Of a stretch of 35,907 bases of DNA, positions 16,068 to 20,888 are shown piece after piece. The notes below the pieces were generated by a model that saw nothing but the letters and a program-made list of their open reading frames with translations, had not been told where the DNA came from and ran no database searches. The stretch covers positions 1 to 35,907 of IMG/VR virus record IMGVR_UViG_3300030099_006313, one strand, 5' to 3'. The DNA comes from a virus. The position numbers and the translations under genes are program-made. The stretch's first letter is position 1. The number at the start of each line of letters is the position of its first letter.

Positions 16068-19000
16068 ATGGCATTTCCACCACCACCAAATGAACCGGGA
16101 AACACACTCAGTCCTTTGCAGGATAATGATACTTTTCGCACATGGTTTGATCGAACAAATGAACTGATCAACGCGATTAATCCTTTGGACATCTACGGTG
16201 TCACCGCGATGACCAACAATCCCGGCATCACAATTGACATTGATGCTCTTGGTATTGCAAATCTTGGTTTTTCATTGCCAGCGTATCTGACTGGTGGTGT
16301 CGAGTTTGGTGGACACATCACCTTTGAAAATAATGTTGAGTTTCTGGCGGGCATCTCAGGTAATATTGTAAATACATTCAACGGTATGACAGGTGATGTC
16401 ACCTTTGACTCTGCTGGTCTTGCCGGTGCTTCCACTGGTAAAATTGTTGTTTACAATACTGACGGTGCAACTTGGCAAGCACAAGATTTCTTTGGCGGTA
16501 TCACACAAAATGTGATTGTCTTCGGTGCAAGTGGCGGCATGATTCTTGGTGGTGTCACTCACGACTTTGCTGGCAAAACTTTTGCCCAAGGCACGATCAT
16601 GCTCAAGGGTGGATCAACTGCATCGATTCTTTTTCAGAATACTCAATACTCTGGAACTGATGCTCGTAGAGTCGGCACAATTTTATCCGACGAATCAAAC
16701 GGCAATTTCTCATCCTTCCTAATCAATGGTAGCAACACTGCTGGTGTGCGGGATACAAACGCAAATGCACCTTATGTTTTGATTGAGAAAAATAATCGTA
16801 GACTCGGATTATTTGGTGTCACCGCTCCTTCCGCCCCTGTTGAATATTTGACAAGAAGCGGTGTGAGTTCTGACATTATTTTCCAATCAACGACCGGAAC
16901 CACATCGGGCATTGGTGTTGAGCCAACGAGCCTTGATTTCTATGCCAAGTCAAATCCAAATATTCGTGCTGTTCTTGAGCGAGCCGCAAGAGATGGTAAA
17001 TTTATTGTTCAAGGTGATGACTCAAACGCACGAAAAAATATTATTAAAATCATTCAAGATGGAGATGTAATTATTGGTGATGCAAACCAAATTACAGATG
17101 GTAATACTTTCGGTAGATTCAATATTGCGTCTGGTGCTTTGTATGTTGGTGGATCACTTGGTGCGACTGGTTCTGTTCTTGTTTCCGGCGGTCCCGGTGG
17201 CACTGCACAATGGCAAACACTTAACTCCGGTCCGGGTGAAATTTCAGTCAATGGTGATTTGATTAGTGGATCGACTGCCGCTTCGGCACTTGCGTTTAAT
17301 GAAGGAAGAAATGTTTCGATTACAGGAACATCATCTGGTGCGAGTGCTGGAATCACGGTGAATAGTTTCATGTACGCTCAAAGCAATCTTGCACCGGATG
17401 GTCCGGGCGTAACAGTCGAAGGCATTAACCTTGTTGGTGTTGGTGGAACAGTTGTAACTGTAGGCGAACCATCAACTGTTGGTGGTGTGAGTCTTGCGAC
17501 ATATCTTATTCAAGGCGGTGGTCAAGGTGCAGCAGATGGCATCACTGGATTGTTCCAACTCAAAGTAAATGGCTCTGATGTTTCAACTCAAGGTGGTTCG
17601 TTAGAGAGTCTAAACATTGTTGGCACTGGTAATGGAATTACGTTATCATACGATCCGGGTGCAACTGGAGGCACACTCACTTTCCAAGTCACTGGTGCTG
17701 GTGGAGCAGATGGTTTAACAGGTCTTCAAGAACTTTTTGTTCTTGGTGTGCCGAAGGCAACTGGTGGATCGTTTGAAGGTCTTAATATTACAACAGATGG
17801 CGGTGGTATCACTGCTACGTTTACTGGTGGACAAACCACTGGAACACTAACTCTCACCGTTGATCCTACCGGAAACACAGGAACCACAGGAAGCACAGGC
17901 ACTACAGGTTCAAGCATCACTGGTGCTTCACTTAGTGATTTGTCTGGTGCTGCTGGCACACCCGGACAAACTTTGTCGTTCGCTATTGAAATGGCAGGTG
18001 GTGGAATCACAGGATTCACGGCAGGGTTCATACCAACTGGAGGAACTGGTGCTACCGGTCCCGCTGGTTTGATTGGATTTGAATATTCTTGCGCAACTTT
18101 TGAATCATCTGTTATTGCTTCCGGTATCACAACTGGCACACTTGTGTTTGCAAACACAAACAAACTTTTCATTGCCGTCACCGCAGCGAATGGTACAACA
18201 ATTGATAATGTTCTTGATAACCTTACGGCTAAAGATAGGATCTTTATTACAGACAGAGCCGGTGGACTTTTCTCCATTGAATTAGATAAATTACCGAAAG
18301 AGCAACCCGCTGGTACAATCGCACTTGAAGGTACATTTGCAGACACGGGCGTGGGTGCAACAAACGGAGCAGGCACAACAGCAAACTTCGTTGCTCTCTT
18401 CTCCGGTCGTGGTGTTACAGGTGCGACTGGAGCCACCGGAGCAACGGGAGCCACAGGCACGACTGGTGCAACAGGGGCTACCGGAGCGACCGGAGCCACA
18501 GGTGCTACTGGTGCGACAGGAGCCACAGGTTCGACAGGTGCTACAGGTGCAAGGGGCGGCTTTAATTATCGAACAACTAACTCAAATACAACTTTCCCAT
18601 CGTCTGATGGATTGATTAGAGTCGATAAATCAAACGGTGCAATTCAGGTTCGTAAGGTTACGGACAATGGACAAAATATTAATGATTATCTTGGTCAAAT
18701 TGATGTAAATAATAGAATTTATGTCTTTGATGAACGGGGTGCTACTCACTGCTCTGGTCTTGTTACAAGTATCACTTCTGGAACGAATGAATTTACCTTC
18801 GGTATCAATGATACAAGTGGTGCGAATTTCGACGCGGGTACGGCACACGAAGTATTCTTCATCGCAGTTGGTGGTGTGACCGGACCCCAAGGGGTTACTG
18901 GTCCGGGCGTGACTGGTGCTTCTCTTGGTCCGACCGCTTTCGATGCCGCAGGCAAACCCGGAAAAACACTTTCGTTCGCGGTTGTCGGTGGTAATATCGC

Positions 19001-20888
19001 AGCAGCGGCAGGTATCTCAGTTGAGGCAGGTTTTGTTCCGCTTGGTGCAACCGGCACGACTGGTGATGGTGCTGGTCTTCTTTACAATGTTGAAACTTAT
19101 AATTCATCATCCAATAGCCCATCTTCGGGTGGAATTGATTTCAATAGATCAGCGAGTTCGTTCCGCATTCATACCACTGACGCAGACAATGGTGATAACA
19201 CAACATTGTTTGATAATGGTACAATTCCGCCTCGTAAGGGTGATACCGTTTTTATTCAGATCATCGGAACTGATTCTGGTGGCATGACGTTTGGCAGAGT
19301 GGCAGGACAAATTAGAAATATCACCACTCCTACGTCGAATGTTAGAAATATCACAATTAATAACTCTGGTGGTGGTGCGTTCCTTCCAACTGGCGCACAA
19401 ACAGTAGCAGCAGGCACAAGAGCAAGAGTTCTGTTTATCGCAAGTGGTAATACTGGTGCAGATGGTCAGGCAGGTGACGCTGGTAGCGATGGAGCCACGG
19501 GATCGGGTGTAACGGGTGCTTCACTCAGTGATCTTTCGGTCGCTGCTGGCACTCCCGGTCAAACACTTTCGTTTGCCGTTCAAACTCCAGATGGTGGTAT
19601 CACCGCAGTCACGGCAGGATTCATTCCACAGGCTGCTACTGGTAACACTGGTCCCGGTGTTCCTACTTTCTTTAAGAATCAGCAAGCGAATGGTGGCATT
19701 GTTCCTGAAAGCACCTCCGGTGATCCGATCAACACTTTGGTCATCGAGGGTGGAACCGGAATCACGGTTGACATTGTAAGAGACAACAATGGCGGACCAG
19801 ATAGTAAAGATCAAGTTCGCTATCGAATCACAAACACCGGATCAACAGATACGGGTGATGGTGGATCAGGCAGACTGATTGCTATCGGCAATTTCGAGAC
19901 TGGTGCGCATACGACTGCGCTTGCTACCTTTTCGACAGGTGGTTTAGCAGTTTCAACAGGCGGACCAACCCCTTTTGGAATGGGGTTCATTCTTACCCCC
20001 GGTGCGACACTTCAAGTTGATTCATCCAGCAGCGCATCTACGCCAAGCATCGCGGCAGAGGCTCAAAGAGCATTTAGAATGTTAAGTTGGGACTCAACCT
20101 CTATTACTGGTGTTGTAGGCGGTAGAGACAGCGGGCGTGATGGATATCCAAACCCGGATCAAACGAATAATTCAATTGATTTTGAGAATTATGTTCAAAA
20201 GGTGGACTTCCAATCAACAACAGAAGCAAATACCACACACTATCAACCCAAAAATCTTGAAAATAACGATGTCCTTAATTCTTCAACGGGAAGTGGCAAC
20301 GATTATTCAGACAACATGTTGATTTTGACAAAGGGTTATCAATATGAATTTGAAGTTGAAATCCAATTCAAGGGTATTTCAAATGCGTTTGCAATCACAG
20401 GTGATAATCTTATAAGAGGTGACGGTGATGGCAGCATTGTGCCACTTGGTGCTACAATGATGAACTACACTGCGCTTAGGGGTATGATTCAAGTTGGAGC
20501 AGGTGGTGATCAAACGAATGGCGAGGAGGCTCCTGCCGATTCTGATTTCCCCGGTCAAACAGCAAGACCATTTGGCGGCGGATTCTACAGTTGGTCAAAT
20601 ATACCACAAGGTTCTGATCAATATATCGATGATACTGGTTTTCCGTTTAACACATCAAACAGTAACCCCACAACTTTGGTTTACACAAAACAAAGAGGGA
20701 CTCTTACTAACAGGATTCAACCTTGTAGACTCGGACATACAGAAACCCTGAAGTTACACGGTTTTGTTGATCTTAGGAACGCAGTTTTCAATAAAACTTG
20801 CACTCTTATCGCTGGAGTTCCGAACAGATTTATGTCACACACACTTAGTATTTTAGGAACAAAAGCCACTATTAAAGTCTATACATGA
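16068..20888 (+). CDS. Modular tail fibre protein with collagen-like repeats
   Basis: This 1606-residue protein starts with a Pro-rich leader and [19 protein letters not shown], a start seen in virion-attached proteins of aquatic T4-like phages, probably for baseplate anchoring. [19 protein letters not shown] (~105-123) is a fibre-type motif. Residues ~489-601 hold two tandem ~56-residue repeats. Residues ~616-1197 hold three copies of a TGASL...PGxTLSFA module separated by distinct domains, and a Gly-X-Thr collagen-like tract lies at ~782-830. The C-terminal ~400 residues (to [19 protein letters not shown]) look globular and may be the tip. The family role is host recognition; that this is the receptor-binding fibre is inferred from position and architecture. 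No obvious tail-fibre chaperone gene follows it. GAGGT precedes ATG 16068. Confidence 0.83.
17532..17870 (+). repeat. Two tandem ~56-residue repeats in the tail fibre
   Basis: Copies at about 17532-17699 and 17706-17870 encode related units. Each opens with ADG(I/L)TGL, continues through a GGS(L/F)E(S/G)LNI segment and a GI(T)-type strand, and closes with GTLT(F/L). The two copies differ at many positions, so this is an old duplication inside the fibre rather than a recent one. Confidence 0.75.
17915..19656 (+). repeat. Three dispersed copies of a [13 protein letters not shown] module in the tail fibre
   Basis: Copies lie at about 17915-18062, 18909-19068 and 19508-19656. All share a TGASL start, AAGxPGxTLSFA in the middle, an AGF(I/V)P near the end and a closing (A/G)TGxTG. 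Copies 1 and 3 are closest (both have SDLS and [11 protein letters not shown]). Copy 2 is diverged ([18 protein letters not shown]). Different domains of about 150-280 residues sit between them, so the module looks like a repeated connector in the shaft. Confidence 0.8.
18411..18557 (+). repeat. Collagen-like Gly-X-Thr tract in the tail fibre
   Basis: An array of 9-base units (GGTGCGACT-like) encodes about 15 consecutive Gly-X-Y triplets, nearly all Gly-Ala-Thr with single Gly-Thr-Thr, Gly-Ser-Thr and Gly-Ala-Arg variants. Synonymous codon changes separate most units. Shorter Gly-X-Thr runs lie at about 17874-17910 and near the other modules. Such runs form trimeric collagen-like shafts in phage fibres. 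Confidence 0.9.

Follow-up and report, generated by a model that had tools for sequence, protein, structure and literature searches.

A long collagen-like fibre of a Kyanoviridae-related virus, with a beaded shaft and a tip or distal half that appears to be exchanged among relatives

Described collagen-like fibres and the locus in the window

Escherichia coli prophages are known to encode side tail fibres of modular build that include collagen tracts (PMC3368898). In EPclA-D, the collagen-like prophage side tail fibres of E. coli O157:H7, such tracts lie between conserved non-collagenous domains, with the virion end at the N-terminus and the variable end at the C-terminus. The antireceptors of Streptococcus thermophilus phages likewise have collagen-like repeats as separators between their domains, together with a variable host-range region, VR2 (PMC5601072, citing Duplessis and Moineau 2001). 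For pelagimyophages and cyanomyophages, PMC7029224 names the interval before the neck genes as a hypervariable host-recognition cluster, in which collagen-repeat proteins occur too.

Here, we analyzed a fibre gene on a 35.9 kb virus contig, which was studied over its whole length of 35,907 nt and is called the window below. The gene (16068-20888, plus strand, as are all features described here) is an intact open reading frame for 1606 aa directly upstream of the neck gene gp13. Its neighbours were assigned by PHROGs and by synteny with the Kyanoviridae. Upstream, baseplate wedge proteins occupy 3974-10640 and are followed by a DUF4815/phrog_358 protein (10650-16058) that carries a C-terminal tail collar domain; downstream follow a head-tail adaptor in the gp13 position (starting at 20973), gp14, gp15 and the large terminase TerL. 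The fibre is thus placed between gp6/gp8/DUF4815 baseplate-type genes and gp13-gp14-gp15-TerL, a location among tail and baseplate genes as in collagen-like phage fibres. The gp13-gp14-gp15-TerL order is that of the Kyanoviridae, and the identity of TerL to the listed cyanomyophages amounts to 59-61 % over 97-98 % (about 60 % for Synechococcus phages), which classifies the virus as a T4-like, Kyanoviridae-related virus of bacteria.

The fibre shares with EPclA-D the collagen-like tracts between conserved non-collagenous domains and the polarity of the two ends. In contrast to the EPclP collagen, in which proline takes nearly half of the X positions and whose flanking domains are PfN, PCoil and PfC (PMC3368898), the main tract of the window fibre has no proline, and a Pfam scan found none of PfN, PCoil, PfC and Pf2. 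The likeness to the S. thermophilus antireceptors is one of description, and those phages are siphophages of Gram-positive hosts. The host-recognition cluster of pelagimyophages and cyanomyophages occupies the same genome position, but a domain layout like that of the window fibre is not described in the accessible part of PMC7029224. Collagen-like modular phage fibres are already known, and what is new here are the sequence families of the anchor and the bead.

No isolate relative of the fibre was found. Searching 50,697 phage records by tblastn with the whole fibre and with its separate domains gave no match, for two of the pieces even at E = 10, and the structural proteins of S-SSM4 and ACG-2014d at the same locus are not homologous to the fibre by BLASTP. 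The Pfam scan of the fibre returned only Collagen and a sub-threshold DUF7189.

Domain architecture of the fibre and its relatives

We propose, with a probability of about 0.75, that the product of the gene is a long fibre for host recognition, probably a homotrimer, composed of an anchor, a beaded Gly-X-Thr shaft and a tip or distal half that is exchanged by recombination. The N-terminal domain (16068-17219, residues 1-384) would serve as the anchor, attaching the fibre to the baseplate. It is the sole part common to all relatives, short and long, and is a new sequence family, without a match in Pfam or PDB.

A scan with an alignment of this domain identified 58 loci, all of them on metagenomic contigs. 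After removal of partial and duplicate proteins, 33 proteins remained, which form one BLAST cluster by their N-terminal domain and nine clusters by their last 200 residues. The short fibres (about 580-670 aa) carry only a short distal part. Fibres of type I (L007, L012, L089, L091, L098) have an extra bead D0 in addition to D1 and D2, and those of type II (L006, L008, L093, L096, L097 and the window) combine the R repeat and three or four beads with varied tips. Scanning for close relatives by the window N-terminus or tip alone recovered only L001 (IMGVR_UViG_3300030331_005335). A protein on a further contig, L125 (6983-11065), matches the first ~135 residues of the anchor weakly and continues with about 1200 unrelated residues without Gly-X-Thr tracts.

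Variation was also seen between the fibre gene and gp13. In the window, a small basic reading frame of 56 aa (20885-21055; [30 protein letters not shown]...) overlaps the fibre stop in an ATGA and runs into gp13. The motif KPRSNTYKR.RS just before gp13 is kept in L006, L008, L096, L097, L007 and L012, with the ATG absent in L006 and L097, so that the frame may encode a micro-protein, or the stretch may serve as a conserved signal in the nucleic acid. An extra reading frame of about 350-390 aa, starting with MPGETY.GPYFG.RT in L007, L012 and L091, is present at this place in these three loci and in L013. It occurs in certain type I and short-fibre loci and is absent from the window and from the other type II loci checked.

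To evaluate the internal repeats, we used leave-out HMMs, which were built on the relatives with the window protein excluded and compared with 200 local shuffles. The middle of the fibre would form a beaded shaft, with two tandem R repeats followed by the beads D1-D3, joined by Gly-X-Thr tracts and the connector M. The sequence-only reading had predicted two tandem 56-residue repeats in the 1606-residue protein, and these were recovered as R copy 1 (17538-17702, residues 491-545; 33.2 bits) and copy 2 (17712-17873, residues 549-602; 21.0 bits), whereas the best shuffle reached 7.4 bits. Compared with each other, the two copies gave a Smith-Waterman z of 12.7, and none of 500 shuffles scored as well. 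The tandem duplicate is found only in the window and L001; a single copy is present in L006, L008, L093, L096 and L097. A third R-like copy suspected at residues 1203-1258 was not significant in the leave-out HMM.

Three tracts with glycine at every third position follow. A Gly-X-Thr/Ser tract (17871-17915, residues 602-616) adjoins the R repeats, the main tract lies at 18411-18554 (residues 782-829) and a Gly-X-Y tract at 19446-19508 (residues 1127-1147). The main tract contains the 15 predicted Gly-X-Thr triplets, consecutive from GVT to GAT at residues 782-826, and continues with GAR, which gives 16 uninterrupted Gly-X-Y triplets up to residue 829. Since it is free of proline and the fibre scores below the curated gathering cut-off of Pfam Collagen (PF01391; E = 1.5e-5, 25.1 bits versus 27.2), calling this tract collagen denotes a resemblance, not a proven fold. 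At the DNA level, nearly every triplet uses different synonymous codons and the 9-nt units match each other at 72 %, a variation which may limit slippage.

The beads were located by a leave-out HMM of domain D, which matched exactly three segments of the fibre: D1 (18069-18407, residues 668-780; 20.7 bits), D2 (18552-18875, residues 829-936; 31.9 bits) and D3 (19068-19448, residues 1001-1127; 26.1 bits), with 7.1 bits for the best of 200 shuffles. D domains are also present in L096 and L097, neither of which was in the training set. According to the sequence-only reading, the domains between the connector modules differ from each other; this holds only superficially, because D1-D3 are about 20-30 % identical and, judged by the profile matches, diverged copies of one beta-domain family of about 110 aa. 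AlphaFold2 predicted D2 as a single chain with a mean pLDDT of 90.7 and mostly beta strands. The bead has no reliable Pfam match and no PDB match at E < 1e-3, and is a new sequence family in this sense. Its fold matches 34 predicted viral structures at E < 1e-3, and where these carry a name, it is mostly an annotation as collagen triple helix repeat protein; they come from uncultured Caudovirales, the Synechococcus phages S-H34 and S-CAM7, and the giant viruses Klosneuvirus and Indivirus. With these proteins the bead shares its fold (TM-score up to 0.86, E down to 2.8e-6) but only 10-22 % identity along the bead, and their structures are likewise predicted, not solved.

Comparison of single beads across the relatives points to a mostly stable order with occasional change. 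D2 of the window fits best with the position-2 domains (46.0 versus 34.2 bits) and D3 with the position-3 domains (35.2 versus 27.3 bits), with which it also groups in the D tree. D1 forms the longest branch of this tree and leans weakly to the type I D1, so that its positional group is uncertain. The sole clear change of order is a D2-type domain at position 4 in L097. Each bead would accordingly have diverged at its own position, with little change of order.

The connector M, the module [13 protein letters not shown] of which three dispersed copies had been reported, aligns beyond chance with itself in all three places. Copy 1 (17916-18035, residues 617-656; ITGASL...PGQTLSFA...TAGFIP), copy 2 (18909-19040, residues 948-991) and copy 3 (19509-19628, residues 1148-1187) share TGAS at residues 618, 949 and 1149 and PGQTLSF/PGKTLSF at 632, 964 and 1163, and their pairwise Smith-Waterman z-scores against shuffles are 24.8, 11.4 and 10.2. 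M1 and M3 are 74 % identical over 148 nt and were also recovered by the leave-out HMM (25.2 and 30.0 bits, shuffles at most 5.5), whereas the divergent copy M2 was not (4.6 bits) and is assigned by its likeness to copies 1 and 3 (z 10-11).

No other part of the layout is conserved as little as the connectors, and most relatives with beads lack them. Along the whole fibre, L007 and L089 align collinearly with 79-85 % nucleotide identity; at two places L007 has connectors where L089 has plain Gly-X-Thr and no connector. This pair indicates that a connector was gained or lost inside a Gly-X-Thr tract, and connector M may generally be insertable into such tracts and lost from them. It is also present twice in an unrelated fibre of 1152 aa (L146/L147) without the N-terminal anchor or a detectable D domain. 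A D-like domain suspected by eye after the connector in L146 was not found by the HMM. A more tentative idea is that connector M, with its ~40 residues, is a mobile cassette that enters Gly-X-Thr tracts in unrelated phage fibres, where it would set the register of the trimer or act as a hinge, and that the bead is an ancient fold, without a solved example, which phages and giant viruses share in their collagen-like proteins; we consider this extended picture doubtful.

Probable replacement of the tip and of the distal half

The C-terminal ~340 residues would form the tip, which most likely touches the host surface and would bind the receptor, as judged from the locus and from the variability of this part. 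Comparison of the window with L001 revealed an abrupt change here. Across 19 kb of upstream DNA and across codons 1-1256 (dS 0.005) they share 99.9 % identity, but in codons 1257-1598 (19836-20861) their amino acid sequences are 72 % identical, with dS 0.787, dN 0.241 and dN/dS 0.31. Near-identical DNA resumes in the last eight codons with one silent change and in the following 63 nt, which are identical up to the end of the L001 contig, leaving a short right flank. The left edge of the exchange is in a linker, some 70 residues downstream of the last connector, and not at a connector. We interpret this difference as a tip allele replacement.

The second pair, L006 and L093, shows a larger exchange. 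Upstream of the fibre and in its first ~620 residues, these loci diverge by about 6 %. From residue ~620, inside the first Gly-X-Thr tract, almost no mismatches are found as far as gp14, with gp13 and gp14 included; the exception is a small divergent patch in the second Gly-X-Thr tract. Divergence resumes about 12.6 kb into L006. The pattern argues for a block replacement of the whole distal half together with gp13 and gp14, with its left edge in a Gly-X-Thr tract.

Recombination would explain the sharp boundaries in both pairs. Gly-X-Thr DNA offers in-frame crossover points, because exchange within the triplets keeps both the reading frame and the periodicity, and collagen-like repeats have been suggested before as possible recombination hot spots in phages (PMC7242381). 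We suggest that crossovers in this DNA and in the linker before the tip replace either the tip alone or the distal half as a block. The nine tip clusters could instead be extremely diverged homologues and not replacements. In a profile comparison, the shortA and shortB tip groups are homologous, and among the long-fibre tip groups the best pair (L006/L096) reached a probability of only 39 %. The window tip was predicted with a pLDDT of 28, with few relatives at hand.

Alternative explanations and significance

The fibre is modular and its parts are exchanged between relatives, in line with the build-by-swapping design of the sequence-only reading, but the further claim that distinct receptor-binding domains are exchanged singly between conserved connectors appears unlikely. 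The connector copies are real and recur in L146/L147, and the number of beads varies from three to four with the D2-type bead of L097 at position 4, all of which would fit such cassettes. However, the beads are one family, D2 and D3 of the window and most relatives fall into positional groups, close pairs never differ by one swapped bead, and most bead-bearing relatives do without connectors. The relatives show largely the same domain order, and exchange is seen at the tip or the distal half, with boundaries in a Gly-X-Thr tract (L006/L093) and in the linker before the tip (window/L001) instead of at connectors.

The boundaries themselves might arise without any exchange, if tips and beads diverged in place under strong diversifying selection and the sharp edges marked relaxed constraint. 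The many amino acid changes in the tip and its position where receptor contact is expected agree with this, but at codon 1257 dS rises abruptly, from 0.005 to 0.787, the dN/dS within the tip is 0.31, and a 150-fold increase in dS is not what selection on the protein would produce. As L006/L093 show the reverse pattern with a conserved distal half, we regard divergence in place as very improbable, and it is refuted for both pairs if the assemblies are right. Mis-assembly, with contigs of co-occurring strains joined at shared sequence, could mimic the boundaries in either pair, and repetitive Gly-X-Thr DNA, shared flanks and the end of L001 63 nt after the gene favour it; against this stand two independent pairs with opposite patterns, frames open over the full length and a left boundary in window/L001 outside any repeat tract, which make an artefact improbable. 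Targeted mutagenesis of the tip, for example by a diversity-generating retroelement, would fit the restriction of variation to the C-terminal region of a protein for host recognition. In the tip, however, changes affect all four bases (A 27 %, C 37 %, G 24 %, T 22 %), favour third codon positions (132 of 278) and extend over about 1 kb, unlike the adenine-specific mutagenesis of a short C-terminal variable repeat that marks a retroelement target, and we give this explanation hardly any weight.

Replacement of the tip or the distal half by recombination is the reading we retain, and the family bears on fibre biology in several ways. If the connector is indeed a mobile cassette, shaft length and flexibility would evolve independently of tip specificity. 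A single solved bead structure would annotate many viral proteins, as the confidently predicted fold has no significant PDB match and yet is shared by collagen-repeat proteins from giant viruses as well as phages. Finally, the family provides natural near-identical pairs that differ only in the tip, the distal half or the connectors, which makes it testable which part of a collagen-like fibre sets the host range and whether Gly-X-Thr tracts are crossover points.
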